Shown here piece after piece: positions 27,167 through 41,418 of a stretch of 42,596 nt of DNA; position 1 is the first letter of the stretch, and each line of letters begins with the position of its first letter. This DNA is from Nitrospirota bacterium (GTDB taxonomy: Bacteria > NPL-UPA2 > JAADIA01), in assembly GCA_013151555.1 (NCBI GenBank), contig JAADIA010000035.1, positions 1 to 42,596 on the forward strand, given 5' to 3'. The position numbers were made by a program, and so were the translations under genes. Under the pieces are notes generated by a model, which saw only the letters and a list, made by a program, of their open reading frames with translations, had not been told where the DNA came from and made no database searches.

Positions 27167-28375
27167 TTACTGCGCTTTAAGAGAAGTAAGTTCAATTGCC
27201 CGGAGATTACGTATTCCATACTTAAGTCGATAGGTTTTGCTAACTGCTTCCTCCTGTCCCTTCTTAGTAATCCAGACATAGTTCTTCTTAATTACATAAT
27301 CCAACCCCTTCGCCTTAAGAACTAGATCTAGAATATCAGTCAAGGGGATCCTCTTCGGGGTATAGATACTAACCCGAGGATTTTTCAGTTCTTCTATAGC
27401 CCTTTCATCAAAGGCAATGTTCAATCCACTCATTTTGGACAAGTAAAAGATCACTTTGGAAAGATCCGTATTCTTGAAGTCAACAGCAACCAAGGTCTTT
27501 ATTCCCCTTTTTTCAGGCTCTTCCCTTACCTTTTCTTTCTTGGTTTCCTGTCCTTTCTCAACTTGCTGCTGATCAGATAAAGTCTTTTTCTTAGTAGATA
27601 CCTGGTTTCTCGGACTCACAGCTTCGGTATGAACAGGAGGACGATTCGCCTTCAGGGAAAGAGCGGAAGCATTCCCTTTCTCAAAAAGAAGGGGATACCC
27701 GGCCCTGTTGGTCATATTCGGGTTGCTTTTCCCTCTTTCATTTCTCTTCGCAGAGCGCAGGACAGGCGCCTTTTTCAAGACAAAGCTCTCGAGGAGTCGA
27801 TCAAAATCTTCCGAGTAACGAGGGAAATCTTTCTTCTCTGCTTCATATCCCAATTCGTAAAAATAGGGACCTCTTTGGAGAAAGACCCTTCGGCTTTGAA
27901 TAGAGAGCTCTTTCGCCCCTAAGGGATTAAGAATAGGTAAATGGTACCGGAAAGAAGCAATGACCTCTTTTCCTCTTAATCCTGCAAAGGTTACTTCTTT
28001 CTCCGAGAGAAGCTTAAAGTTCTTAAACAACCTGCGTTTCTTTTTGTAATTAATTACTTTCTCTTCCAAACTGTTATATTTGCCTCCCTCTTCCTTAACG
28101 GGACTAACAGTTACTACCAGAGAAGCTCTATAGGCCTTTTTTTTACTTACCGGCCCCAGAATTTGAACCTGGCTGTATCTTTCATACTTCCCTTCCGATT
28201 CTATTACTCTCCATTTGCTCGGATAGAGAAAAGTAAATCCTAATTGGGAAGAAGCACTCTCATAATCTATATATTTGCCCCGGCTGGCCCATGCTCTCCC
28301 GGGAATTCCCGAAAACAGGAGCAAAATTACCAAAACGAGACAAAAACCACCCTTTTTCTTAGCGCTAATCTTCAC
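27167..28375 (-). CDS. PsbP-like domain plus STN (secretin N0) protein
   Basis: A 402-residue exported protein, starting with GTG at 28375 behind GGGAG. Residues 10-30 form a signal peptide. Residues about 35-205 resemble a PsbP/DUF1795-type beta domain (LGFTFLYPSKWRVIES...). A Ser/Lys-rich linker follows, then residues ~295-395 form an STN/N0 domain: VDFKNTDLSKVIFYLSKMSG, YTPKRIPLTDILDLVLKAKG, YVIKKNYVWITKKG and a short N1-like start (YRLKYGIRNLRAIELT). The N0 half is close to that of the AMIN-TPR-STN protein. It ends there, with no secretin barrel. It is the last gene of the pilus/secretion run and may add an alternative N0 ring to the split secretins. Confidence 0.75.
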   Translation of the reverse strand: MKISAKKKGGFCLVLVILLLFSGIPGRAWASRGKYIDYESASSQLGFTFLYPSKWRVIESEGKYERYSQVQILGPVSKKKAYRASLVVTVSPVKEEGGKYNSLEEKVINYKKKRRLFKNFKLLSEKEVTFAGLRGKEVIASFRYHLPILNPLGAKELSIQSRRVFLQRGPYFYELGYEAEKKDFPRYSEDFDRLLESFVLKKAPVLRSAKRNERGKSNPNMTNRAGYPLLFEKGNASALSLKANRPPVHTEAVSPRNQVSTKKKTLSDQQQVEKGQETKKEKVREEPEKRGIKTLVAVDFKNTDLSKVIFYLSKMSGLNIAFDERAIEELKNPRVSIYTPKRIPLTDILDLVLKAKGLDYVIKKNYVWITKKGQEEAVSKTYRLKYGIRNLRAIELTSLKAQ

Positions 28376-28411: not shown

Positions 28412-29404
28412 TTAATTTCTGGACTGCTGCTCCCAGCCGGGATATTCGCCCAGGCCATAGATTTGCCTCAGCACCTCTTTAAGATAATCTTCTCCTGTAT
28501 CGATCCAGCTCTCATAGAGGTCCAGAAGCCAATCCGAACCTCCGTATTTGGACTTCGATGTCTTCCAGATATTTATCAAGGCAACATCGTTTACATACTC
28601 CTCATCGATAGTATACTCATAATCATAGGCAGTGTTCATATAATCGTACATAGCATGTAGTCCTTCATGAACCAGGACGGCCGCTATTTTACCCGTGTTT
28701 ATATTGGCATCACCGCTATCGTAAATAGTAATGCTGATAGTATTCCCATTCCAGACACCACTGGTATCTCGGGCCGTAGCCGACAGGGTAATACTAACGG
28801 GTATATTGTATCCGTTTCTCCCGATAGCATCAGCCACATAGGCATACCCATTCTCCCTCAAGAAATCCATAGCCAGAGGTAAATACATCACCCAATCGTT
28901 TGGAGTCGTATCAGCCGGATCTATAGGAAGAGGCAGGTCAAGTGCCTTAGGATCGAGATTTGAGCCGATATCCTCTAGCACTTTGGCCAAGGGACCAACA
29001 TGCACTCCCCCGACACTGGCCAGGATCATAAGGCCATTCTTCCTCAAACTATAAAGATCATAGGATTTGGGATTGATTATCCCCGGGTTAAGATAGACAT
29101 AGGAATGCTTCCAGGGGTCAAACATCACCCCCTTCTTTAAATCTCCCTCATCAATTTTATTCACATAGGACCCGGCTTGGAGAGAAGCTATCAGGTTCGC
29201 ATTCCCACTGGGGGGATATGCTCCATAGTCCATCTCGAACATCCGGATACCGCTATCCAGGGCGCGAAGTTCACTTATGGCTTCCGCTTTCCTGGCCTCA
29301 TCCCGAGCACGGTGAAGAGCGGGCAAGACAACCGCTGAGAGAATTGTAATGATAGCTAAGGCGACTAATAGCTCCACCAGCGTGAAACCTTTTTTCAGTC
29401 TCAT
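28412..29404 (-). CDS. GspG-like pseudopilin fused to an HExxH metallopeptidase-like domain
   Basis: About 330 residues from ATG at 29404 (GGAGGT seven bases upstream). The N-terminus is a type III signal sequence: MRLKKG then FTLVELLVALAIITILSAVV, with cleavage after Gly6 and Glu at +5. Residues ~40-125 match the type II secretion major pseudopilin (MDYGAYPPSG ... FDPWKHSYVYLNPG ... YDLYSLRKNG). Another ~200 residues follow, with VLVHEGLHAMYDY (HEGLH at 246-250) and IDEEYVNDVAL (Glu268/269), the layout of gluzincin zinc peptidases. Normal pseudopilins end near residue 140. Peptidase activity is inferred from motif and spacing only. Confidence 0.82.
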   Translation of the reverse strand: MRLKKGFTLVELLVALAIITILSAVVLPALHRARDEARKAEAISELRALDSGIRMFEMDYGAYPPSGNANLIASLQAGSYVNKIDEGDLKKGVMFDPWKHSYVYLNPGIINPKSYDLYSLRKNGLMILASVGGVHVGPLAKVLEDIGSNLDPKALDLPLPIDPADTTPNDWVMYLPLAMDFLRENGYAYVADAIGRNGYNIPVSITLSATARDTSGVWNGNTISITIYDSGDANINTGKIAAVLVHEGLHAMYDYMNTAYDYEYTIDEEYVNDVALINIWKTSKSKYGGSDWLLDLYESWIDTGEDYLKEVLRQIYGLGEYPGWEQQSRN

Positions 29405-29437
29405 CTCTCTACCTCCTTTTTTTCTTTTAAAATTTCC

Positions 29438-29497
29438 TGCCGGATTAAAGTCCGGCGTCCCTTTTGCAATTCCCAATCTTCAATTTACAATTAAGTC
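29438..29497. repeat. Hairpin and wordy repeat in the pseudopilin leader
   Basis: GCCGGATTAAAGTCCGGC forms a short hairpin (GCCGGA/TCCGGC); next to it GCAATTCCCAATCTTCAATT and the following TACAATT is another word-type repeat. Both lie in the predicted 115-base leader of the pseudopilin mRNA. Confidence 0.5.
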
Positions 29498-29527: not shown

Positions 29528-29556
29528 AATATACCATGCCATTCTTTTCTTGTCAA
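29528..29556 (-). promoter_or_regulatory. Promoter of the pseudopilin-peptidase gene
   Basis: On the minus strand TTGACA (29556-29551), a 17-base spacer and TATATT (29533-29528). The -35 box overlaps the stop codon of the upstream secretin gene. The gene can thus be transcribed separately from the rest of the pilus locus. Confidence 0.75.
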
Positions 29557-30671
29557 GAAGTCCCTCCTGCTCCAATTCTCTCCCCCCTTGGAGAAACGAG
29601 ATAAGCAGTAATAAAAATGAGCAGGTTTTTCTTCACTTTACTGGAATACTTGTATTGGAAAGCCTTGCCCAGAAAAGGAATACTTCCTAAAATAGGAACC
29701 TTTTTCTCTATCACATCAGTCGAGTCATGAATCAACCCTCCCAGAACTATACTCTCTCCGCTGCGGACCACCATGCTGGTATTGGTCGTCCGGGTATCCA
29801 CTACCGGCCAGCCATAGCCCGCCTCCACGTCGTTATAAACCGTTATCCGTTTCACCAGGACCTTGACCGTAGGTTTAATATCCAGGGTGATGAGAGTACT
29901 TCCCTCCGGAACCGTAGGAGTTACCTCCAGATAGACCCCGGCATCATCCTGCGCTATGGTATAGTTTGTCTGCCATATAGGATACTCGGATGTTCCTACA
30001 TTCTGGATACTTCTTTGGCTGACATAAGGAATATTTTGGGTGACCTCAATAGTAGCCGGCTGTCCATTGACAGTAGTCACCCGGGGAGCAGAAAGAACAT
30101 TGACTTTCTTTTGCTTCTCCAGAGCCCGGAGGAGAGCATTAAAAGCCGTATCGTTCAATCGGGTAATCCAGAAGGAGGTCCCTGCCGATTCATTAGGAAA
30201 CCCGGCATCGGAATCCGCCCAATTGCTGATAACATCTACGTTTCCATCGCTAGGGCCGGTCTTGATATTCGGTATATCCAGGTTAACTCCCAGTTCATTG
30301 ATATTAGTGACCGTCAACTCCACAAATTTGGCCTCGATAGTAACCTGAGGATGATAAACATCCAGGCGTTTGATCATTTCCTCTATCTTCTTTTGAAGCG
30401 AAGGCGGAGCTTTAACGATAAGGGTACTGGAAACAGGGTCAACCTCAATGGTAGCTTGAGGAAACATTTTCCTTAAAACGTCAACGATAGTTCTTTCACC
30501 TGACACAGCTCCCTGCTCCGGGGACACTCCCTGATCGGGAATAATCGCCCCCTCTCCCGGCGGCCCTCCCGGCCCCCCTGGCATCCCCCCCTCCGGAGGG
30601 CTTTCTCCCTGAGCAAAGGCCACCCCTCCCAGGGATAAAATCAAACCGAAAACGATAATTAACTTTGTCAT
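29553..30671 (-). CDS. Short secretin, copy B
   Basis: A 372-residue outer-membrane secretin. Residues 1-20 are a signal peptide; then a Gly/Pro-rich linker (GGMPGGPGGPPGEG), an N1/N3-type secretin ring domain (FPQATIEVDPVSSTLIVKAP ... MIKRLDVYHPQVTIEAKFVE) and the secretin barrel: VLSAPRVTTVNGQPATIEV, TVPEGSTLITLDIKPTV, SGESIVLGGLI and VPILGSIPFLGKAF, ending with the IFITAYLVSP strand. Complete PilQ/GspD proteins are longer, with an N0 domain before the ring domains; it is missing here. It is a tandem paralogue of the next gene upstream. GGAGGTG seven bases before ATG also forms the stop of copy A. Confidence 0.9.
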   Translation of the reverse strand: MTKLIIVFGLILSLGGVAFAQGESPPEGGMPGGPGGPPGEGAIIPDQGVSPEQGAVSGERTIVDVLRKMFPQATIEVDPVSSTLIVKAPPSLQKKIEEMIKRLDVYHPQVTIEAKFVELTVTNINELGVNLDIPNIKTGPSDGNVDVISNWADSDAGFPNESAGTSFWITRLNDTAFNALLRALEKQKKVNVLSAPRVTTVNGQPATIEVTQNIPYVSQRSIQNVGTSEYPIWQTNYTIAQDDAGVYLEVTPTVPEGSTLITLDIKPTVKVLVKRITVYNDVEAGYGWPVVDTRTTNTSMVVRSGESIVLGGLIHDSTDVIEKKVPILGSIPFLGKAFQYKYSSKVKKNLLIFITAYLVSPRGERIGAGGTS

Positions 30672-30677
30672 ATTATT

Positions 30678-31736
30678 TCACCTCCTGACTACCGTCTTCT
30701 CCCCGCTGGGAGAGAGGAGGTAAGCGGTAATAAAGATGAGGAGATTTTTCTTCTCATCCTTAGAGTACTTATGCCGAAAGGCATATCCTAAGAGAGGGAT
30801 ATCCCCTAAAATAGGGGTCTTCTTCTCCACCATTCTGGAATTGTCCCTGATCAACCCTCCCAGAACCACTGTCTCCCCGCTATCTATCACCAGGGTAGTA
30901 TTGGTAGTTCGCTCGTCAATGACCGGCCAACCGAGGTCAGCAGGAATATTAAGACCGGCAAATATATCTATCTGTTTGACCAATTCGCGCACTGTGGGCT
31001 TAATATCGAGAGTAATCAAAGTACTTCCCTCAGGCACCCGCGGAGTAACTTCTAAAAAGATGCCGGCATCTTCTTCTTCTATAGTATAGTTAGTCTGCCG
31101 CGTTGTTCCCGACCCTGTTTCCGATTGCTGTGTTGATACGGCACTAACATAGGGAATAGTCTGGGTAATCTCTATGGTAGCTTTCTGTCCATTGAGGGTA
31201 GTTACCATAGGAGCGGAAAGAACATTGACCTTTTTCTTTTTACTCAGAGCTCGCAATACCGACTGGAAGGCCGTATTGGAAAGCTTGGTGTACCAGAGTG
31301 ACCAGGCTGCCCCGCTCTCCGGAAAGCTGGTATCGGCATCCGCCCAGTTAGTAATGACATCCATGTCAATATTCTTCCCTTTCCTGAGAACGATGTTAGC
31401 AATATCCGTATCTATCCCCAACTCATTGATATTGTTAACCGTCAACTCCACAAACTTGGCTTCAACAGTGATTTGAGGATGATAGACATCCAGACGTTCG
31501 ATCATTCCCTCTATCTTCTTCTGAAGCGAAGGCGGAGCTTTAATGATAAGGGTGCTGGTAAGGGGATCCACCTCAATGGTCGCCTGAGGAAACATGCTCC
31601 TTAAAACATCTACGATGGTTGTCCCTCTCCCCGTCCCTGCTTCTGTTCCTGTTCCTGGTTCCTCCTGCCCTCTTGCTGAGGCCAGAAAGGAAAATAACAA
31701 AACGCTCACTAGAATTAATTTTATTGCTTTCATCAC
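30678..31736 (-). CDS. Short secretin, copy A
   Basis: A 352-residue secretin with its own signal peptide (LILVSVLLFSFLASARG), a short Gly/Thr linker (GTGTEAGTGRGT), one N-terminal ring domain (IVDVLRSMFPQATIEVDP ... SLQKKIEGMIERLDVYHPQI) and the barrel (VLSAPMVTTLNGQKATIEI, SGETVVLGGLI, TPILGDIPLLGYAF, LLIFITAYLLSP). It starts with GTG at 31736 or ATG at 31733, four bases after the AMIN-TPR-STN gene. The N0/STN domain that should precede it is the end of that separate gene. Very similar in layout and sequence to copy B, so they arose by tandem duplication. Confidence 0.9.
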   Translation of the reverse strand: MMKAIKLILVSVLLFSFLASARGQEEPGTGTEAGTGRGTTIVDVLRSMFPQATIEVDPLTSTLIIKAPPSLQKKIEGMIERLDVYHPQITVEAKFVELTVNNINELGIDTDIANIVLRKGKNIDMDVITNWADADTSFPESGAAWSLWYTKLSNTAFQSVLRALSKKKKVNVLSAPMVTTLNGQKATIEITQTIPYVSAVSTQQSETGSGTTRQTNYTIEEEDAGIFLEVTPRVPEGSTLITLDIKPTVRELVKQIDIFAGLNIPADLGWPVIDERTTNTTLVIDSGETVVLGGLIRDNSRMVEKKTPILGDIPLLGYAFRHKYSKDEKKNLLIFITAYLLSPSGEKTVVRR

Positions 31737-31740
31737 CTTT

Positions 31741-33414
31741 CTAATTTACCTCCTGTTGTTTTCCCAAAAGGGTAGGCGCAACCTGCCGGATCGTGCGTAT
31801 TCCATACTTGAGCTTATAGGCTTTAGTAACCGGCTCTTCCAACTGTCCCTTCTTCGTAACCCAGATATAGGTATCCTTAATCACATAGTCTAATCCTTTT
31901 ACCTTCAGAATCAGATCCAGGGCATCAGTCAAAGGAATCTTCGTAGGAATATATATAGTGACCCGGGGGTCGGTTAACTCCTCCAAGGCCTTCTCGTCGA
32001 TGACGATAGCTATTCCACTCATCTTGGAGAGAAATAAAACCACCTCGCGAAGGTCCGTATCCTTGAAGGTCATGGTAACCATAGTTTTCTCTGCCTGGTT
32101 TTTCAATCCCACTATTGCCACTGCTTCAGGTCCTGTTTTTTGGCCGGGTTTAGTCCCTCCTCTCCTCGTCTCTCGCCCTTCCGGATTTATGGTATCGTGA
32201 TAATCAACAGGAGAGGTATAAAGCGCCTTGGTTACATCCAGGGCTCTTCGCCCTTCTACTAATTCTTTCTCAGCATCAGCTCTCTCTTTATCTACTTTTA
32301 AAGCCTGCATCCTTGCCTTTGTAATTAGTTGCTCAGCCCGCCTATTGCCCGGACTGATATCAAGCACTTTCTCCCCTTCAGCGATAGCCTCTAGATAACG
32401 TCCCTGGAGGTAATATTTCTTTCCTCGATTCAGATAGGCAGCAAGCTTATTCTCTTTCGCCTCTTCCCGCAGCCTGATTTCCTCCTGGATTTTCGCTTCT
32501 TTCTTCTTCTCCCCCGCCAGAGCCAGATAACTTCGCGCCTCCTTATTCTTCGAATCCAAAGCTAAAACAATTTCGAACTCCTTAATAGCCTCATCGAATT
32601 TGTTAGTTTGGTAGTATTTCTCTCCCCGGGCTAAAGAATCTTTGATCTTCCGCTCCCGTTCCTTTGCTTCCCGGCGGGAAACCTCCTCAGCTAACTTTCT
32701 CTTAGCTGCTGCTGCTTTCGCTTTAAGTTCAATTTCTTTTTTCAGCTTTTTATCCAGGAGCTGCTTAGCTCTTTCTTCAGCTCTCTTCCGATACATCTCT
32801 TCTCTTTTTGCAATCTCTCTCTTTGCTTCTAACTTTTTCTTCTCTTCCGCTTTCTTTTTCAGCTCAATTTTCCTGGTTAGAGCCAAACGCTCGGCTTCTT
32901 CCTTCTTCTGTTTGATTCCCGCTTTTTCCTCAGCGGCTAGCTTTCTCTTCATTTTCTTCTCCGCTTCAGATCTTGCCCGCTCCTCGCTCCGCAAACGAGC
33001 CTTTGCTTCCCTGGGAAGAGAAAAATAGAGCAATAACCTTTTTCCTGCTTTTCGCACCCTGCTCTTGGCTGACTGGGTTAAGTTAACCACGATACGAACA
33101 GTATCCGGCTTATACTGTGAGTAATTGACTGTCTTCACTATCCCATTCATTATTTCCACAGTCCTGGGTTCCTTAAGAGTAACTCCCGGAATATCCAAAA
33201 CCAGCCGGGGGGGATTCTTAAGAGTAAAGGAACGATAATTCACAGATTCTGTGAACTCCAGGGTAATAACCGTCTCTCCTGTCTTTTGCCCAACCCCGAT
33301 AGCACCCACTTCCATTGTTCCGGAATAAGCAGTCGTCAATCCTAACAGAAAAAGCAGGATAAAGACTATTCCTCTTTTTGTTTTTGTCTTAATAGATTTC
33401 CTCGATCCATCCAT
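31741..33414 (-). CDS. AMIN-TPR-STN protein (N-terminal part of a split PilQ-like secretin)
   Basis: About 557 residues from ATG at 33414 (GGGAG nine bases upstream); an upstream in-frame start lacks a ribosome site. A signal anchor (GIVFILLFLLGLTTAYSG) is followed by an AMIN domain at about 35-130 (VITLEFTESVNYRSFTLKNP, RLVLDIPG, IVKTVNYSQYKPDTVRIVV), a long Lys/Glu/Arg/Ala coiled coil (130-260), two or more TPRs (GEKYYQTNKFDEAIKEFEIV; GKKYYLQGRYLEAIAEGEKV), and an STN/N0 domain (FKDTDLREVVLFLSKMSG ... IPLTDALDLILKVKG). In PilQ the AMIN and N0 domains are on the same chain as the secretin; here the gene stops after N0. AMIN domains bind peptidoglycan or pilus parts in the periplasm. Confidence 0.85.
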   Translation of the reverse strand: MDGSRKSIKTKTKRGIVFILLFLLGLTTAYSGTMEVGAIGVGQKTGETVITLEFTESVNYRSFTLKNPPRLVLDIPGVTLKEPRTVEIMNGIVKTVNYSQYKPDTVRIVVNLTQSAKSRVRKAGKRLLLYFSLPREAKARLRSEERARSEAEKKMKRKLAAEEKAGIKQKKEEAERLALTRKIELKKKAEEKKKLEAKREIAKREEMYRKRAEERAKQLLDKKLKKEIELKAKAAAAKRKLAEEVSRREAKERERKIKDSLARGEKYYQTNKFDEAIKEFEIVLALDSKNKEARSYLALAGEKKKEAKIQEEIRLREEAKENKLAAYLNRGKKYYLQGRYLEAIAEGEKVLDISPGNRRAEQLITKARMQALKVDKERADAEKELVEGRRALDVTKALYTSPVDYHDTINPEGRETRRGGTKPGQKTGPEAVAIVGLKNQAEKTMVTMTFKDTDLREVVLFLSKMSGIAIVIDEKALEELTDPRVTIYIPTKIPLTDALDLILKVKGLDYVIKDTYIWVTKKGQLEEPVTKAYKLKYGIRTIRQVAPTLLGKQQEVN

Positions 33415-33604
33415 CGCTTCTATCTCCCTCTGCTTTTTACTTGTCCGTCGGCAGTAACTCCGCCTGGAACTTCGTTTCACCCTTCTTCATGAGCCATCCT
33501 CCAGGCTCCTCCAGGGATTTTTCTCGCCCGCATTCCCCCATATTTTTTCTTTGTCTTTTTTCCCTTCTCTTTCAGACTCTATTTTCCTGCTTCTTTTACT
33601 TAGA

Positions 33605-34150
33605 TTATCCACCCAAAGGCAACATAAGCTCTTTCTTCTTTTCCTTATTATATAACTCTACTTTATCCTTTTCAATCTTAATCACTTTCCACCCTTCAAT
33701 CTCATCTCCTTCTCTCACGTTATAAGTTTCTCTCCCCTCAATGAAAGCAATGAACCCGTCAGGAGTACCTATTACACCCCGGTATATCAATTCCCCTTCG
33801 GTTCTTATCCCTTTTCTGCTTCCAGAAGACAGTTTTGCAACCTTTGGCAATTGGGAAAAAGGATTTCTTTGAATCAAGTCATTGTAATAGGTAATCGGCT
33901 TTCTGACCAGGAGACCGTCAAAATCCACAGCAACAGCCGCTTTGGTTGCTGCCAGCCTCTCCTTTTTTATCCTCCCGATAGTTACTACCTCTTCCGGAGA
34001 AGAAGTTTCCCTCTTAGACCAACCAATGATAAAATATAAACCGAGAAAAACAAATGTAGCCAAGAGAAATAACGAGATCACTTTCTCGGGTTTCTCCTTT
34101 ACAAAAATCAGTATCTTCAAGAAACTAAAATCAAACTTCACTTTTTTCAT
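33605..34150 (-). CDS. pilP: PilP/GspC-like inner-membrane protein
   Basis: About 181 residues. One N-terminal transmembrane helix (VISLFLLATFVFLGLYFIIGW), a linker, then NPFSQLP and the HR-type beta domain (LIYRGVIGTPDGFIAFIEG, YNVREGDEIEGWKVIKIEKD, VELYNKEKKKEL) typical of PilP and GspC, which link the inner-membrane complex to the secretin. ATG at 34150 overlaps the PilO stop (ATGA); a TTG at 34174 is an alternative. The following 190-base gap (33415-33604) shows no convincing gene. Confidence 0.75.
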   Translation of the reverse strand: MKKVKFDFSFLKILIFVKEKPEKVISLFLLATFVFLGLYFIIGWSKRETSSPEEVVTIGRIKKERLAATKAAVAVDFDGLLVRKPITYYNDLIQRNPFSQLPKVAKLSSGSRKGIRTEGELIYRGVIGTPDGFIAFIEGRETYNVREGDEIEGWKVIKIEKDKVELYNKEKKKELMLPLGG

Positions 34151-35046
34151 CCCTCGTTGGAAGGAAATAGCCAAACGGAAAGGAGAAGATTAACTTCCAA
34201 TTCTTTCTTCTCATTTTCCTTTTTCCCTCTCTCTAATGATTGTTTCCCGATAGACACCGCTCTTCTTCCTTGCCTCAATCGCCCTCCTCTACTCCGGGGA
34301 CTTGCCTCTCTCCCACTAACCACGGACTTAATCTCCAGACTTTTTACAGTAAAGAAATGAGAACGGTTAGACAACTGGTAGAGAAGATTGGTCAAGGTTG
34401 ATATTGAAACCCTCACTCCCAGCTCAAAATTTAATTCTTCCAATAACCTTTGTGAGGATTCGTCCCCTGAGAGGGAAACGACCACACCCATCCCTCCCGC
34501 ATTCGATTTTGCTCCCTCCGGAGAAAACGGGAGAGGTTTGAATGTATCGAGATTGCTCACTCCCGATTTTGCAACGAGGGTTAGCAATTCTTTGGCAGTC
34601 ATTAGTTGACTCAAAAGCATAGACAACTCTTTCTTGCTCCCTGGTTTCTCTCTCTTAAAACCGAGGCGAGGAGGAATTTCGATTGCGGTCATTCCCTTCA
34701 GGCTATGAAGGTCGTTTCCCACTTTCTCCAGTTGCTCTTCAAAATAAAGATTTAGTTGCCCTGTTTCCCCCGGCAAAGAGACCAATCGATCAAAATCCAG
34801 CGTTTTTATCACTTTTGCATATTGTTCTTTCAGCATCTCTTTTTCCTTCGTCAACTTTACAATCATCTCCGGCGAAGGGGGATTATCTGCATATTTTTGG
34901 AGTTGAGCTACCTTTTGCTTAGTCAAATCAATCACTTCTTGCCTCTTTACCACAACCGGCCTCACCAAGAAGAGATAGAGGCTAAGGGAAACAAGTACTA
35001 ACGTAAAAATAGCTGCTCCCAAGAGATGCTTTTTCAAAAAAGTCAT
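34147..35046 (-). CDS. pilO: PilO-like inner-membrane alignment protein
   Basis: About 299 residues with one N-terminal transmembrane helix (LLGAAIFTLVLVSLSLYLFL), a coiled coil (QEVIDLTKQKVAQLQKY ... LTKEKEMLKEQYAKVI) and a C-terminal ferredoxin-like region, the PilO/GspM plan; several such proteins in other phyla (Amuc_1100 type) are of this length. A basic, Ser/Arg-rich insertion near the C-terminus (SPRSRGGRLRQGRRAVS) is unusual. Two ATGs are adjacent; the second (35046) has better spacing from GGAG. It lies between PilMN and PilP, as expected. Confidence 0.75.
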   Translation of the reverse strand: MTFLKKHLLGAAIFTLVLVSLSLYLFLVRPVVVKRQEVIDLTKQKVAQLQKYADNPPSPEMIVKLTKEKEMLKEQYAKVIKTLDFDRLVSLPGETGQLNLYFEEQLEKVGNDLHSLKGMTAIEIPPRLGFKREKPGSKKELSMLLSQLMTAKELLTLVAKSGVSNLDTFKPLPFSPEGAKSNAGGMGVVVSLSGDESSQRLLEELNFELGVRVSISTLTNLLYQLSNRSHFFTVKSLEIKSVVSGREASPRSRGGRLRQGRRAVSIGKQSLERGKKENEKKELEVNLLLSVWLFPSNEG

Positions 35047-35102
35047 CATTTTCTCCGCTAATTGCCCATTCTATCTATGTGAAAACTGAAGAAATAGAAC
35101 CT

Positions 35103-36869
35103 TCATCTTCTTTTAAATTCCCAATTTCCGCCTTCATTGATATTGTCTTCTTCATATACATCCGCTCCCTGCGGCGGGGTAAAGGTTTTGCTTCCCTCCG
35201 GAGGTGCGCTTTCGACAGACTGCCTGGAAACAGGTTGCCTGGAAACAGGAGCAAACTTGTTAGAGAAAGAAAAAGCAGATTTTTTGAAAGGGAAAGACTC
35301 CAAAGATATCTGAAGACTAAACTGGTAAAATTCTTCCTTTCCCCTTATTCTCTGCGGAGTACCTGCTTCCACTTTTCCAAAAAAAGGAGAAGATTCCAAT
35401 TCGAAAACAGTACCTCTAATAACCGGGATAGTTGGGGCTTCCCCTTCCAAGAAGAGAATTCCATTCTCTTGAGAGAAACTATTCAAGCTAACCTCATCGG
35501 GAACAAGCCTACTCAATTCCAAAAGAACCGTCAACCAGAATTCCTTCCCCTGGGTTAATTTTTTCAAAGTTTCTAATCTCTCAGTAATTGTTCCTATCTC
35601 TCCTTTGAGCATTCCTATCGGCTGTTCATACTTCTGATATTTTTTTAATTTTTCCTCAATAGTCGCTAATTGGTTCTTCTTCAAATCGTAATCCTGACGG
35701 GCAAAAGCGTAGGCCATAACCGCAATTAAGAGAGTCAAAACAAAAGAAAAGATGAAATATCCTTTCCTCTTTTGAAATTCTTTTTTCTTGGTTATCTCTA
35801 TTGGAAGTAAACTAATTTCACTGGCACATTTGGTAAGGGGGCGGAGAGCTAAGCCAACAGCTACTGCGAAAGAAGATTCCTGACCGGAAAGAGGAAAACC
35901 ATTCGGGAGGTGAATATTCTTTAAAAGAGAACTTTTCTTCACTTCTATCTTTAATTCTTTCTCTAAAAACTTATCCAGGTTAGCAAGTTCAGCCCCACCA
36001 CCACTTAGAAATATCCGGTCAATGGTCGTTCCTCCCAATTCCGCCTGGAAAAAGGTCAGGGAGCGCCCTATATCGTTCACTAAACGGGAGAGGACGGGGA
36101 TAATCACCTGGGTAAATTTTTTCTTCTCATCTTCTAAATCGACCATCCTCTTTTCTCTCTTCATCTTCTCTGCTTCCGCAAAGTCCATTCCGAAACTCTG
36201 CTGGATAGCCTGGGTAAGATCATGCCCTCCAATAGGAATACTTCTTGTCCAACAAAGACTTCCTTCCCGTTCAATACTCATCTCTGTTGATTTAGCCCCG
36301 ATATCAAGGAGAATCGATGTTTCTTGCTCAGATAATTCCTGGTTGAACTTAAGACAGTTATAAAAGGCTAAAGGGCTATAATCAACTACTTCCGGTTCTA
36401 TTCGGAAAGCAGATACTTCTTCCAGGAGTTTATTAATCAATTCTGCTTTCGTAGCTACCAATACCACCTTGATATCCATCGCTTTCTTTTTCAAAACCTG
36501 ATAATCCCAGATGACTTCCTCAAGAGGAAGGGGAATCTGCTGCTGGGCCTCGTAGTTAACTATTTGAGCGATACGGGTGGTATCAACCGGAGGAAGTTTG
36601 ACATAGCGGATATAGACAGAGGGACCTTGGGTAGCCATAGATAGAGCTTTCCCCTTCAGGGTTCCCATCTCTCCTAAAGCTTTCTCCAAAGCTTCTCTAA
36701 TATTCTTTTTTTCCTTGGCTTTCTCACCATTCAAGGAAGAAGGGAATTCAATTAGGGCCGCTCCGGACAGCTCGATTTTTTCCTTCACTTTTTTTAAGGC
36801 TACTACTTTTATCGAGCTGGACCCAATATCTAATCCTATAGATTCTTTAGTCTTATTAAAGATAGCTAT
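35103..36869 (-). CDS. PilM-PilN fusion protein
   Basis: About 588 residues if it starts with ATA at 36869. The first GTG (36788) would remove the ATP-binding start SIGLDIGSSSIKVVALK, which is encoded in frame just upstream; AAAAGGAG lies seven bases before the ATA. Residues 1-345 are PilM, an actin-like ATPase (PPVDTTRIAQIVNYEAQQQI, LLDIGAKSTEMSI, FLSGGGAEL). Then comes ISLLPIE, the peptide by which PilN normally binds PilM, then a transmembrane helix (GYFIFSFVLTLLIAVMAYAF) and the PilN coiled coil and periplasmic domain. Usually PilM and PilN are separate. The tail contains a tandem PVSRQPVSRQSV. Confidence 0.85.
   Translation of the reverse strand: MAIFNKTKESIGLDIGSSSIKVVALKKVKEKIELSGAALIEFPSSLNGEKAKEKKNIREALEKALGEMGTLKGKALSMATQGPSVYIRYVKLPPVDTTRIAQIVNYEAQQQIPLPLEEVIWDYQVLKKKAMDIKVVLVATKAELINKLLEEVSAFRIEPEVVDYSPLAFYNCLKFNQELSEQETSILLDIGAKSTEMSIEREGSLCWTRSIPIGGHDLTQAIQQSFGMDFAEAEKMKREKRMVDLEDEKKKFTQVIIPVLSRLVNDIGRSLTFFQAELGGTTIDRIFLSGGGAELANLDKFLEKELKIEVKKSSLLKNIHLPNGFPLSGQESSFAVAVGLALRPLTKCASEISLLPIEITKKKEFQKRKGYFIFSFVLTLLIAVMAYAFARQDYDLKKNQLATIEEKLKKYQKYEQPIGMLKGEIGTITERLETLKKLTQGKEFWLTVLLELSRLVPDEVSLNSFSQENGILFLEGEAPTIPVIRGTVFELESSPFFGKVEAGTPQRIRGKEEFYQFSLQISLESFPFKKSAFSFSNKFAPVSRQPVSRQSVESAPPEGSKTFTPPQGADVYEEDNINEGGNWEFKRR
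35213..35252. repeat. Short tandem word repeat in pilMN
   Basis: CTGTTTCCAGGCAAC occurs twice in tandem (minus strand) and encodes PVSRQPVSRQ near the C-terminus of the PilMN protein, in a Pro/Ser-rich disordered tail. Confidence 0.55.
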
Positions 36870-37046: not shown

Positions 37047-38294
37047 TTAGGTCAAAGACATTGCCATCTGAATCAGAGGAATAAATAAGGCGATAACAAT
37101 AAAACCAACCAGCGATCCCATAAGAACAATGAGAAGAGGTTCCATCACCGAAGTTAACGCCGCCACAGCTGTATCTACTTCATCGTCATAGTTATCCGCT
37201 ATTTTAATAAGCATCTGATCCAGGTTTCCTGTTTCCTCTCCGACGGCGATCATGCTGGTAACCAAAGGAGGAAAGACTCCGCTGTCTTCCAAAGGACCGG
37301 CAATAGTTTCCCCTTCGCGGATACTATCATGGACATTACTAATGGCCCGGGATATCACTATGTTCCCGGACGTTTCTTTAGTTATAGAAAGAGCCTGAAG
37401 TATCGGTACCCCGCTGGAGATAAGAGTGCCTAACGTTCGACTGAACCTGGCCACCGATAATTTTTGGACCAAAGGTCCGAAGAGAGGAAAACTCAATTTC
37501 ATTTTATCAATAGCAGCTCCCCCTCTTTTCGTTCTTTTTATTAATTTGAAAACTATGATTAAGGCAATAATAACCACAGGGATGAGCAACGCTTGCTTCG
37601 TTCGGAGAAAGTTATTGATACCTATCAAAAGCTGGGTAGGAGCCGGAAGGTCTTGCTTAATATCCTTGAACATCTTGACAAAAGTAGGAATAACAAGTTT
37701 AAAAATAAGAGCTAAAACGCCTACTATAACGAAGATAACCACAATAGGATAGACCATAGCTCCCTTTATCTTACTCTGAAGCTTTGCGCTTTTTTCTGCG
37801 AACTCTGCCAAACGTTGAAGAACAGTATCCAGAACTCCTCCAATCTCACCAGCCTTAACCATATTCACAAAAAGTTTGGAAAAGGCTCGAGGATGTTTAG
37901 CTAAAGCTTCAGAAAAAGTGCTTCCCCCTTCCACATCTTGAGAGACCGTTTCCAAAATCTCTTTCAGAGTACAGGGTTTCATCTGCTTTCGAAGAACGCC
38001 AAGACTGCGAATGAGGGGAAGCCCGGCATCGATAAGCGTAGATAATTGTCGCGTGAAGGGAGTAAGGTTTTTGGCACTTACCCGGCCGGCCATCCCGGGT
38101 ATCTTAATTTGAAACTGGAAAGCACTCGGCTTCCCGGAAGAGGACTTATCTTTAGACCTTCGTTCGATTATCCGGGTAGGGAAATAGTGCATCTCCCGCA
38201 CCTGGCTGATAGCCGAGGCTTGATTATCAGCTTCGACCATCCCCTTTACCTGTTTACCTTTCGCATCAGTAGCTACATAATCAAAGATGGGCAT
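37047..38294 (-). CDS. pilC: Type IV pilus inner-membrane platform protein PilC
   Basis: About 415 residues with two GspF domains. It begins MPIFDYVATDAKGKQVKG, the usual PilC/GspF start, with GGGGAG ten bases upstream; the open frame upstream to 38381 runs through a wordy repeat and is not coding. First domain about 70-200 (FTRQLSTLIDAGLPLIRSL ... MVKAGEIGGVLDTVLQRLA), the helix pair IKGAMVYPIVVIFVIVGVL, then the second domain (FSRTLGTLISSGVPILQAL ... AVGEETGNLDQMLIKIADN) and C-terminal helix (VGFIVIALFIPLIQMAMSL). It holds the assembly ATPase at the membrane. Confidence 0.94.
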   Translation of the reverse strand: MPIFDYVATDAKGKQVKGMVEADNQASAISQVREMHYFPTRIIERRSKDKSSSGKPSAFQFQIKIPGMAGRVSAKNLTPFTRQLSTLIDAGLPLIRSLGVLRKQMKPCTLKEILETVSQDVEGGSTFSEALAKHPRAFSKLFVNMVKAGEIGGVLDTVLQRLAEFAEKSAKLQSKIKGAMVYPIVVIFVIVGVLALIFKLVIPTFVKMFKDIKQDLPAPTQLLIGINNFLRTKQALLIPVVIIALIIVFKLIKRTKRGGAAIDKMKLSFPLFGPLVQKLSVARFSRTLGTLISSGVPILQALSITKETSGNIVISRAISNVHDSIREGETIAGPLEDSGVFPPLVTSMIAVGEETGNLDQMLIKIADNYDDEVDTAVAALTSVMEPLLIVLMGSLVGFIVIALFIPLIQMAMSLT

Positions 38295-38324
38295 TTTGTC
38301 ATATCTCCCCAAATCAGTGCTTTT

Positions 38325-38475
38325 AAAAATCCGAAATTCTAAGTACGAAATACGAAACAATATCAAATGATCGAAATGCAAATAACCGAAACACTAAGTT
38401 TTGAAAATTTTAACCTTAGAATTTTAAATTTGTTTCGAACTTCGATATTCGGGTTTAGATTTTATTTTTTAGCGT
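38325..38475. repeat. Wordy imperfect inverted repeat (ccgaaattctaagtacgaaa type)
   Basis: Left arm AATCCGAAATTCTAAGTACG and on to AAATACGAAACAA; right arm TTTGTTTCGAACTTCGATAT and on to TCGGGTTTAGATTT. The arms are approximate reverse complements and can form a hairpin of more than 30 bp. It lies between pilB and pilC. Confidence 0.65.
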
Positions 38476-38541: not shown

Positions 38542-40266
38542 TCAAGCAAATAGCTGAGTCCCCTTGACCACTTCCTCTATAGTAGTAATTCCCTGATAAA
38601 TCTTCTCCAGACCATCCTCCCGCATCGTTCTCATCCCCTGTTCCCGCGCTTTTGCCCGAACATCCTTAGTAGGAGCCTTCCCGATGATAAGAACTCTTAT
38701 ATCCTCGCTCATAACGAGGAGTTCGTAAATACCTGTTCGCCCTTTATATCCAACATTGTCACAAAGATCGCACCCCTTCCCCCGATAGAAGGTCCGTTCC
38801 TTAACCTCATCCGCAGTCAGCCCGATAGCTTGCAGTTCGTTCTCACCCGGCTGGTAGGGTTCTCGACAATTCTGACAGAGGGTTCGAACTAATCTCTGGC
38901 CAAGAACCGCCTCCAGCGTAGAGGTAATCAGAAAGGGTTCAATCTGCATATCGACCAAACGAGTTATCGTAGAAGGAGCATCATTAGTATGTAAGGTACT
39001 GAGAACCATATGTCCCGTAAGGGAAGCTTGGATAGCAATCTCGGCTGTCTCTAAATCTCGAATCTCGCCGACCAGGATAACATCCGGGTCCTGACGAAGA
39101 ATATGGCGCAAACAACTGGCAAAGGTAAGACCAATAGCTTCTTTAATTTGCACCTGCATAATCCCGGGGATATTATACTCTACCGGATCCTCAGTAGTAA
39201 TAATCTTTATCTCGGGACTGTTAATTGCCCGGAGAGCAGAGTATAAAGTAGTTGTCTTACCACAACCGGTTGGGCCGGTAGCCAGAATTATTCCATTGGG
39301 TTTTTTGATCAATTGCTCAAATTTTACAAGGTCATCAGGTAACATTCCAACATGATCCAGAGAAAGCATAACAATAGACCTGTCCAGAACTCGCATTACG
39401 ATACTTTCCCCAAAAACAGTGGGCAGAGTAGAAATGCGAAGGTCCACTTCCCTCCCTCCCATATCGATCTGAATACGTCCATCCTGCGGAAGACGCCTCT
39501 CTGCGATATCCAAATTAGCCATAACCTTTATTCGAGATGCAAGAGCCAAGCTCAAATGTTTTGGGGGAGGAACCATCTCATAGAGAGTTCCATCAACCCG
39601 GTAACGAATCTTGAATTGATCCTCAAAAGGTTCGAAATGAATATCACTGGCCCGGGCCTTGACCGCCTGCATAAGAACCAGGTTAAGGAGCTTAACTACG
39701 GGGACTTGTTCCGTTAATTGTTGTAACTGTTGAACACTGGTCTCCGGTTCTTTTTCTTCCGCTATTTCAGTAATCTTACCGGCCTGTTCTCCAAGCTCTT
39801 CCAAAAGCTCTCCCACCGATTCCATCTCTGTTCCATAATGCTTCTCTATAGCCCTTTCCACATGCTCCTCAGTACTAATGGCTCCCTTAACTTCACAACC
39901 CAAGAGGAAACGAAGATCGTTCAAGGTGTGAGCATTCAAAGGGTCCGCCATAGCCACGACAAGAGTATTATCCTCCCAGCTTACCGGGATAACCTTATAA
40001 ATGCGGGTGACGGAAGGAGAGACGCGATCGAGAATATCCCTGGGGATTTCCAGTTGGTCAAGATTAATGGACGGCATCCCTGTCTGTTCCCTCAAAGTCA
40101 TAACAACATCAGCTTCCTTAACAAAGTCCAAATCTATAAGCACCTGTCCCAGAAGTCGCTTTGCCTTCTTCTGCTTCTCTAAAGCCTCCTGGAGTTGCTC
40201 CTCATTAATTAATCCTTTGGCTACCAGGAGTTCTCCCAAGGCCCGCCGGCTTTGACTATTTACCAT
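38542..40266 (-). CDS. pilB: Type IV pilus assembly ATPase PilB (GspE family)
   Basis: A 574-residue hexameric secretion ATPase. N-terminal MshEN-type domain (LGELLVAKGLINEEQLQEAL ... TGMPSINL), then N2 (SDIHFEPFEDQFKIRYRVDG), Walker A GPTGCGKTTTLYSAL, Asp box TTEDPVEY, Walker B ILVGEIRDLETAEIA, His box LSTLHTNDAP, and the zinc tetracysteine (CQNC ... CDLC). GGAG seven bases before ATG. It powers pilus extension or pseudopilus assembly with PilC. Confidence 0.95.
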   Translation of the reverse strand: MVNSQSRRALGELLVAKGLINEEQLQEALEKQKKAKRLLGQVLIDLDFVKEADVVMTLREQTGMPSINLDQLEIPRDILDRVSPSVTRIYKVIPVSWEDNTLVVAMADPLNAHTLNDLRFLLGCEVKGAISTEEHVERAIEKHYGTEMESVGELLEELGEQAGKITEIAEEKEPETSVQQLQQLTEQVPVVKLLNLVLMQAVKARASDIHFEPFEDQFKIRYRVDGTLYEMVPPPKHLSLALASRIKVMANLDIAERRLPQDGRIQIDMGGREVDLRISTLPTVFGESIVMRVLDRSIVMLSLDHVGMLPDDLVKFEQLIKKPNGIILATGPTGCGKTTTLYSALRAINSPEIKIITTEDPVEYNIPGIMQVQIKEAIGLTFASCLRHILRQDPDVILVGEIRDLETAEIAIQASLTGHMVLSTLHTNDAPSTITRLVDMQIEPFLITSTLEAVLGQRLVRTLCQNCREPYQPGENELQAIGLTADEVKERTFYRGKGCDLCDNVGYKGRTGIYELLVMSEDIRVLIIGKAPTKDVRAKAREQGMRTMREDGLEKIYQGITTIEEVVKGTQLFA

Positions 40267-40353: not shown

Positions 40354-41418
40354 CTACGTATATCCCAGTTTAGCTTGAAGGGCCGCAGCATCATAAGCCC
40401 GATTCATTGCTTCCTCATAGCTAATTAGTCCGTTGCTATGAAGTTCGTAAAGGGATTGGTCTAAGGTCTTCATTCCATATTTGGCTCCCGTCTCAATGAC
40501 GGACGGAAGATTATAGGCTTTCTTTTCCCTGATCAAGTTCTGGACAGCCGGAGTAGCTATCATTACTTCGAAAGCTGCAACCCGGCCCCGGCCGCCATCT
40601 TTGGGAAGGAGCATCTGGGAAATTACCGCTAAAATGGATACGGAAAGTTGAGCTCTAATCTGCTCTTGTTGCTCCATAGGGAAAGCATCAATGATCCGAT
40701 CCATCGTTCGAGCAGCTCCCGTAGTATGCAGGGTAGCAAAGACCAAATGTCCGGTCTCTGCCGCCGTAATAGCAGCTTCCATGGTAGCCAAGTCCCGCAT
40801 TTCTCCCACTAAAATCACATCCGGGTCCTGACGAAGCGCCTTGACTATAGCTTCAGCAAAGGAGGGAACATCCACTCCCAGTTCCCTTTGAGTGACCACC
40901 GACTTTTTATGTTTATGATAATACTCAATAGGATCCTCAACCGTGATTATGTGACAATCCCTTTCTTGATTGATAAAATCAAGCATTGTAGCCAAAGTGG
41001 TCGTCTTCCCGCAACCGGTTGGTCCGGTAACCAGGATAAGTCCCTTCGGTTTATAAAGGAGCTCTTTGATAGTCGGAGACAAACCAAGCTCCTCAAAAGT
41101 CAAAAGCTTTGAGGGAATCAGCCTCAAGGCTAAACCTATATTACCCTTCTGCTTGTAAACACTTACCCTGAACCTGGCCAAATCTCCAAAAGCGAACCCG
41201 AAATCCGTTCCCCCTCTTTCCTGGATTTTCTGCTGATGGGCAACGGAGGTAATCGATTTCATCAGCTCCATGGTATCCTCTGCCGTGAGAGGTTTGAAAT
41301 CTAAGACGTCCAGCCTTCCATCAACCCGCAATACCGGCGGCTTATCTACCGTTAAATGCAGATCGGAAGCATTCCTTTCCACTACAACACTTAAAAGCTC
41401 ACTTATATCTATACTCAT
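40354..41418 (-). CDS. pilT: Type IV pilus retraction ATPase PilT
   Basis: A 354-residue PilT. It lacks the N1 domain of PilB, starts with the PAS-like domain (ASDLHLTVDKPPVLRVDGRL), and has Walker A GPTGCGKTTTLATML, Walker B ILVGEMRDLATMEAAI, His box FATLHTTGAARTMDRIID and the C-terminal AIRNLIRE-like helix (PAVQNLIREKKAYNL). Its presence suggests true retractable pili and not just a type II secretion pseudopilus. The ribosome site is weak. Confidence 0.95.
   Translation of the reverse strand: MSIDISELLSVVVERNASDLHLTVDKPPVLRVDGRLDVLDFKPLTAEDTMELMKSITSVAHQQKIQERGGTDFGFAFGDLARFRVSVYKQKGNIGLALRLIPSKLLTFEELGLSPTIKELLYKPKGLILVTGPTGCGKTTTLATMLDFINQERDCHIITVEDPIEYYHKHKKSVVTQRELGVDVPSFAEAIVKALRQDPDVILVGEMRDLATMEAAITAAETGHLVFATLHTTGAARTMDRIIDAFPMEQQEQIRAQLSVSILAVISQMLLPKDGGRGRVAAFEVMIATPAVQNLIREKKAYNLPSVIETGAKYGMKTLDQSLYELHSNGLISYEEAMNRAYDAAALQAKLGYT

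Follow-up and report, generated by a model that had tools for sequence, protein, structure and literature searches.

A split PilQ-type secretin in which the tail strand of a separate N0 adaptor may complete the ring domain of two tandem pore subunits

The type IV pilus secretin genes of the window (the whole 42,596-nt stretch of DNA analysed) encode the N0 domain on one chain and the barrel on two others, and the chain is cut inside the ring domain. The first strand of that domain is kept at the C-terminus of the N0 chain, and the remainder of the ring, together with a secretin barrel, is encoded by two adjacent paralogous genes. We propose that this is a split PilQ-type secretin and that the tail strand of the N0 adaptor probably completes, in trans, the ring of the two tandem pore subunits. 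By sequence, the nearest named family is Amuc_1098 of Verrucomicrobia, and the predicted role is that of an outer-membrane multimer through which pili pass.

The genes follow the order pilT-pilB-pilC-pilMN-pilO-pilP-N0-secA-secB-pilin-second N0 on the minus strand of the window (Table 1), and the pilM-N-O-P operon context of PilQ is therefore present around the split secretin genes. A T3SS gene neighbourhood is absent from the window, where the neighbours are the type IV pilus genes for PilB, PilC, PilMN and PilT. Secretin A starts 4 nt past the stop codon of N0 subunit 1 in a different frame, and both secretin genes have a strong Shine-Dalgarno sequence (AGGAGGT, AGGAGGTGA). The first-pass annotation had described three adjacent genes here, with N0 on a chain apart from two paralogous barrels that each have their own signal peptide and linker. 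The ORFs confirm this arrangement, Pfam and NCBIfam matches bear out the separate N0 chain, and the two secretins, at 65% identity, are true paralogues; their signal peptides were recognized by inspection, and the linkers are of Gly/Thr (A) and Gly/Pro (B) type. Two further features of the neighbourhood were observed: the long C-terminal part of the pilin carries HEGLH, a HExxH zincin-like motif, and the N-terminal part of N0 subunit 2 resembles PsbP weakly (E 5e-4, below the cut-off).

Table 1. Type IV pilus and split secretin features of the window
Feature	Coordinates	Strand	Composition or basis
PilT retraction ATPase	40354..41418	-	
PilB/GspE ATPase	38542..40266	-	
PilC/GspF platform protein	37047..38381	-	
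PilM-PilN, fused	35103..36788	-	
PilO-like	34147..35049	-	Position and similarity to relatives
PilP-like	33605..34174	-	Position and similarity to relatives
N0 subunit 1	31741..33480	-	Signal peptide, AMIN (peptidoglycan-binding type), TPRs, N0/STN, C-terminal tail; likely start ATG at 33414
Tail DNA (ring-domain strand 1) and stop codon of N0 subunit 1	31741..31830	-	
Secretin A	30678..31736	-	Signal peptide, Gly/Thr linker, ring domain without strand 1, secretin barrel; likely start ATG at 31733
Secretin B	29553..30671	-	Signal peptide, Gly/Pro linker, secretin barrel; ring without evident strand 1
GspG-type pilin with extra C-terminal part	28412..29476	-	Between secretin B and N0 subunit 2
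N0 subunit 2	27167..28375	-	N-terminal part weakly PsbP-like, N0/STN, same tail as N0 subunit 1

In Pfam searches, N0 subunit 1 matched AMIN (7e-16) and two TPR stretches, and no barrel was present. Its N0/STN matches were weak and under the cut-off (FecR_C, 5e-5; STN, 1.4e-3, with 18.8 bits against a Pfam cut-off of 28.4). On the 428-position NCBIfam PilQ model, the N0 ORF covers positions 4-84 and secretin A covers 133-424, and the N0 chain and secretin A also match the NCBIfam Amuc_1098 model in order. We assigned the N0 domain of subunit 1 on the basis of the FecR_C/N0, PilQ and Amuc_1098 model matches; the N0 region of subunit 2 is 55% identical to it. A profile search with A5 against solved structures gave TPR proteins or TPR-bearing constructs in the 60 matches listed. 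Inspection revealed no lipobox Cys where either window N0 protein is likely to be cleaved. Both barrels are intact in Pfam (PF00263; 5.5e-45 for secretin A and 6.3e-41 for secretin B), and fold matches to PilQ and GspD structures were obtained at Z 11-12. The Secretin_N match is partial in both copies, covering profile positions 13-65 of 69 in A and 8-65 in B, and a complete Secretin_N is absent from the pore chain.

The cut had been placed just after N0, with one ring domain and one barrel assigned to each secretin gene. The barrels stand, but the N0 chain continues through ring strand 1, and the rings left on the secretin genes are incomplete. The strand (YxLKYG) forms the C-terminal tail of the N0 chain (VTKAYKLKYGIRTIRQV in subunit 1 and the equivalent VSKTYRLKYGIRNLRAI in subunit 2), and the secretin starts at ring helix 1. 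In subunit 1, the tail strand lies at about residues 549-560. In fused relatives (L064-L084, G006, G008 and others), N0 is followed by the strand 'xTRVYxLxxG', a variable linker, the helix 'TIKDVLE' and the rest of the ring. This linker, between 'ETRVYFL' and 'TIKDVLE', is long, hypervariable and often Gly/Ser/Glu-rich, and its position is that of the split in window-type loci. In canonical PilQ-like chains (e.g., L124), the strand runs directly into the helix and Secretin_N is matched from position 1. Among the split genomes, the N0 chain stops shortly past the ring strand and the mature secretins start near the helix, often with only 2-6 residues ahead of it (by inspection); the Gly/Thr and Gly/Pro linkers of the window are longer than in most split relatives. 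In split genomes, no stretch of the N0 proteins is better conserved than the tail, whose nine columns have a mean pairwise identity of 72% compared to 41% upstream and 39% just downstream.

Structure models of moderate confidence (mean pLDDT 64-68) agree with this placement. In the model of secretin A, ring helix 1 is H41-48 and no strand lies N-terminal to it, residues 18-38 having a pLDDT below 50, whereas in the model of a fused relative residues 138-143 form a strand. A second, short strand of that fused model (171-176) adjoins helix 1 and is a possible alternative edge strand. When aligned to solved secretins, the fused model begins 13-16 residues before secretin A in nine shared chains (e.g., 240 vs 254 for 5zdh, 1 vs 14 for 6ve2 and 239 vs 253 for 5wq8), these ranges being the first and last aligned residue only. 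Joining the window tail to its ring raised the Secretin_N score from 29.8 to 30.4 bits and the match became no longer; the L059 joint alone lengthened the match, which then reached positions 1-69 (29.8 to 31.7 bits). Support from this joining test in Pfam was weak. Because the strand is found on the N0 tail, the secretins start at the helix and the secretin model lacks the strand, the ring domain is divided between two chains. These data show that the cut sits inside the ring domain, after strand 1, with the strand kept on the N0 chain.

The N0/secretin/secretin cassette is complete in 14 other genomes (G002 [L037], L056-L062, L177-L180, L182 and L183) and incomplete at contig ends in L055 (a 6023-base contig of G007), L063/L187 (one genome, G067) and L181. 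The split and the duplication are therefore conserved in related genomes, a comparison that the first-pass annotation had proposed. All named cassette records belong to Candidatus Omnitrophota and include Candidatus Kappaea frigidicola. The first secretin gene is spaced from N0, and the second from the first, by -4 to +33 nt in all loci measured except L183, where 168 nt lie ahead of the first secretin, and the relative reading frame of N0 and the first secretin differs among split genomes. A survey of 384 genomes drawn from the GTDB phylum to which G060 belongs gave nine genomes with a full-length N0 match, each in a 366-387-aa open frame, and a further such match of 451 aa in G079. A scan of genome contigs with secretin A alone as the query gave no match. 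Conservation of the cassette in many independent assemblies indicates that the split is real and not an assembly error. With N0 on an ORF separate from that of the barrel, and conserved so in relatives, this is a split variant and not a canonical PilQ. In many split loci, a secreted protein of 103-107 aa, weakly YbjQ-like, lies directly 3' of the second secretin (L056:10235-10549, L058:4460-4771, L062:6497-6820 and others). It is absent from the window and is a possible assembly partner.

Splitting and duplication are separable, because each occurs without the other. Tandem pairs of fused secretins, with N0 on both chains, are present in G006 and G008 and in many Omnitrophota, Auribacterota and Verrucomicrobiota, whereas in G215 (L184) and G034 (L015) a split N0 precedes only one secretin. 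L184, L185, L186 and L015 form a second split type with the tail 'VYDV(Q/E)DL(V/I)G'. In the trees, window-type split secretins form one clade (100/100), and secretins A and B of the window are each other's closest rows. The window pair grouping with itself indicates either independent duplication or gene conversion. A single ancient A/B duplication for all split loci was rejected, as a first-secretin clade costs 179 log-likelihood units (p-AU 4e-59). A quick tree placed G150, G140 and G215 apart (98), but the careful tree put all split rows on one side of a branch (94/88), and a claim of two independent splits was dropped; judged from these trees, the secretin was split either once or twice. 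Tandem fused PilQ pairs of Auribacterota, Lentisphaerota and Verrucomicrobiota (L074, L075, L079, L087, L112 and L129) were also seen to group each within its own lineage, a pattern pointing to repeated duplication or gene conversion.

In the arrangement that we propose, the adaptor subunit would be AMIN-TPR-N0 and the pore subunit would be ring plus barrel, present as two tandem copies. The adaptor tail would insert in trans into the ring of the pore subunit as its missing edge strand, and the N0 ring would be clipped under the pore and not covalently tied to it. The AMIN and TPR parts would anchor the N0 subunit to peptidoglycan or to assembly factors. N0 would join PilP and the inner-membrane platform as the N0 of PilQ does; PilP binds the N0 of PilQ and is itself tied to PilN and PilO (PMC3441751). 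Secretins A and B would both be pore subunits, in one mixed ring or in two pores, and we infer that they may hetero-oligomerise. The fuller statement, in which strand donation by a separate N0 adaptor completes the rings of two paralogous pores and provides a clip-on N0 floor that hetero-oligomeric or alternative pores can bind or exchange, is in our judgement evenly poised.

The number of N0 genes bears on which of these arrangements applies. In most split relatives, two secretins are accompanied by one N0 gene, whose product must have either both of them or just one as its partner; with the two N0 genes of the window, A and B could have separate partners. The first-pass annotation had one N0 shared by two secretins, which agrees with the 1:2 number of most split relatives but is not shown for the window, because its two N0 genes carry the same tail. 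A strict 1:1 number of N0 to secretin was rejected on the same 1:2 count. The G002 N0 protein (L037:7764-9491) has two N0/STN domains on one chain beside two secretins, the second domain being recognized by inspection. A mixture of A and B, or one common N0 pool, is more likely in relatives with a single N0 gene. A variant of our explanation for the window, compatible with strand donation, is that there are two homomeric pores, N0 subunit 1 with secretin A and N0 subunit 2 with secretin B, for different conditions or filaments. We regard this as a tentative possibility: the two N0 genes and two secretins of the window, the doubled N0 of G002 and the N0 on each of the two secretins in G006 and G008 would fit it, but most split genomes combine two secretins with just one N0 gene, in G060-G068 no additional full-length N0 protein of window type was evident genome-wide, and in the window A and B adjoin closely, with both N0 genes in one run with them.

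Alternatively, the N0 tail could be a relic of the split, the shortened ring working without strand 1 and N0 being separate with no ring under the pore. The N0 protein might in that case serve, for example, as a periplasmic anchor that binds PilP or as a TPR chaperone resembling a pilotin. TPR domains do occur in Tad and T4aP pilotins (PMC4500985), but no lipobox was seen by inspection in the window proteins, unlike in lipoprotein pilotins. N0 and the ring domain of Neisseria meningitidis PilQ have no fixed relative orientation (PMC3441751), and the gain in Secretin_N score on joining the window tail is small. A relic should decay, however, whereas the tail is the most conserved N0 stretch and is kept in both window N0 copies, and we consider this alternative unlikely. 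That a frameshift introduced by sequencing or assembly has broken up a fused gene, or that the locus holds a decaying duplicate, has a negligible probability despite the existence of fused homologues, since the split recurs in many independent assemblies with a variable frame relation, each of the two window secretins comes with its own signal peptide and Shine-Dalgarno sequence, and both barrels are intact. A frameshift or read-through joining N0 to secretin A was likewise rejected, as the frame relation differs by genome and each window secretin has its own start. The first-pass annotation had regarded fused homologous loci as evidence against a split; such loci were found (G006, G008 and many in Omnitrophota, Auribacterota and Verrucomicrobiota), and we read them as a different evolutionary state and not as a sign of a frameshift.

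The split arrangement can be set beside several known systems. The window genes share with PilQ and Amuc_1098 (NCBIfam TIGR02515, NF042912) the barrel, ring, N0, AMIN or TPR modules and a place after pilM-pilN-pilO-pilP; those are single chains, whereas here N0 and ring strand 1 are apart from the ring remainder and barrel, which are present in two copies. In the rhizobial T3SS, the N- and C-terminal secretin parts are also on separate genes, RhcC1 and RhcC2 (PMC3973906, PMC3574062), and RhcC2 has been described as a Tad-like secretin acquired separately (a rereading in PMC4500985). The rhizobial genes are apart, whereas those of the window are adjacent in a type IV pilus operon, both parts match one family, and the barrels are in tandem. 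DotD of the Dot/Icm T4BSS has an N0 fold on its own chain, is proposed to form a periplasmic ring and carries a conserved strand-bearing segment (the 'lid') needed for DotH targeting (PMC2951367). A stand-alone N0 chain with such a segment is also what the window N0 proteins have, but DotD is a lipoprotein, its lid is N-terminal and its partner DotH is not shown to be a secretin. Tandem fused PilQ pairs (L064, L074, L080, L112 and others) likewise have two adjacent paralogous secretins after pilMNOP, but in Omnitrophota, Auribacterota and Verrucomicrobiota each of these chains has its own N0. In an open-licence library, we found no description of an Omnitrophota PilQ, of a type IV pilus secretin encoded in pieces or of chains that share a ring domain. 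Split secretins (rhizobial T3SS) and a stand-alone N0-like domain (Dot/Icm) are thus already known, and the type IV pilus case, of which we found no account in that library, is apparently new.

It remains to be explained in structural terms how the N0 ring connects the pore in the outer membrane with the pilus motor in the inner membrane. A natural split at the N0-barrel joint, kept across a lineage, suggests that the covalent link between N0 and barrel is dispensable. It also suggests that docking relies on a short strand and offers two-part and two-pore versions of the secretin in a candidate bacterial lineage and its Omnitrophota relatives, and the tandem secretin pairs of several phyla raise the question of what purpose the second pore copy serves.
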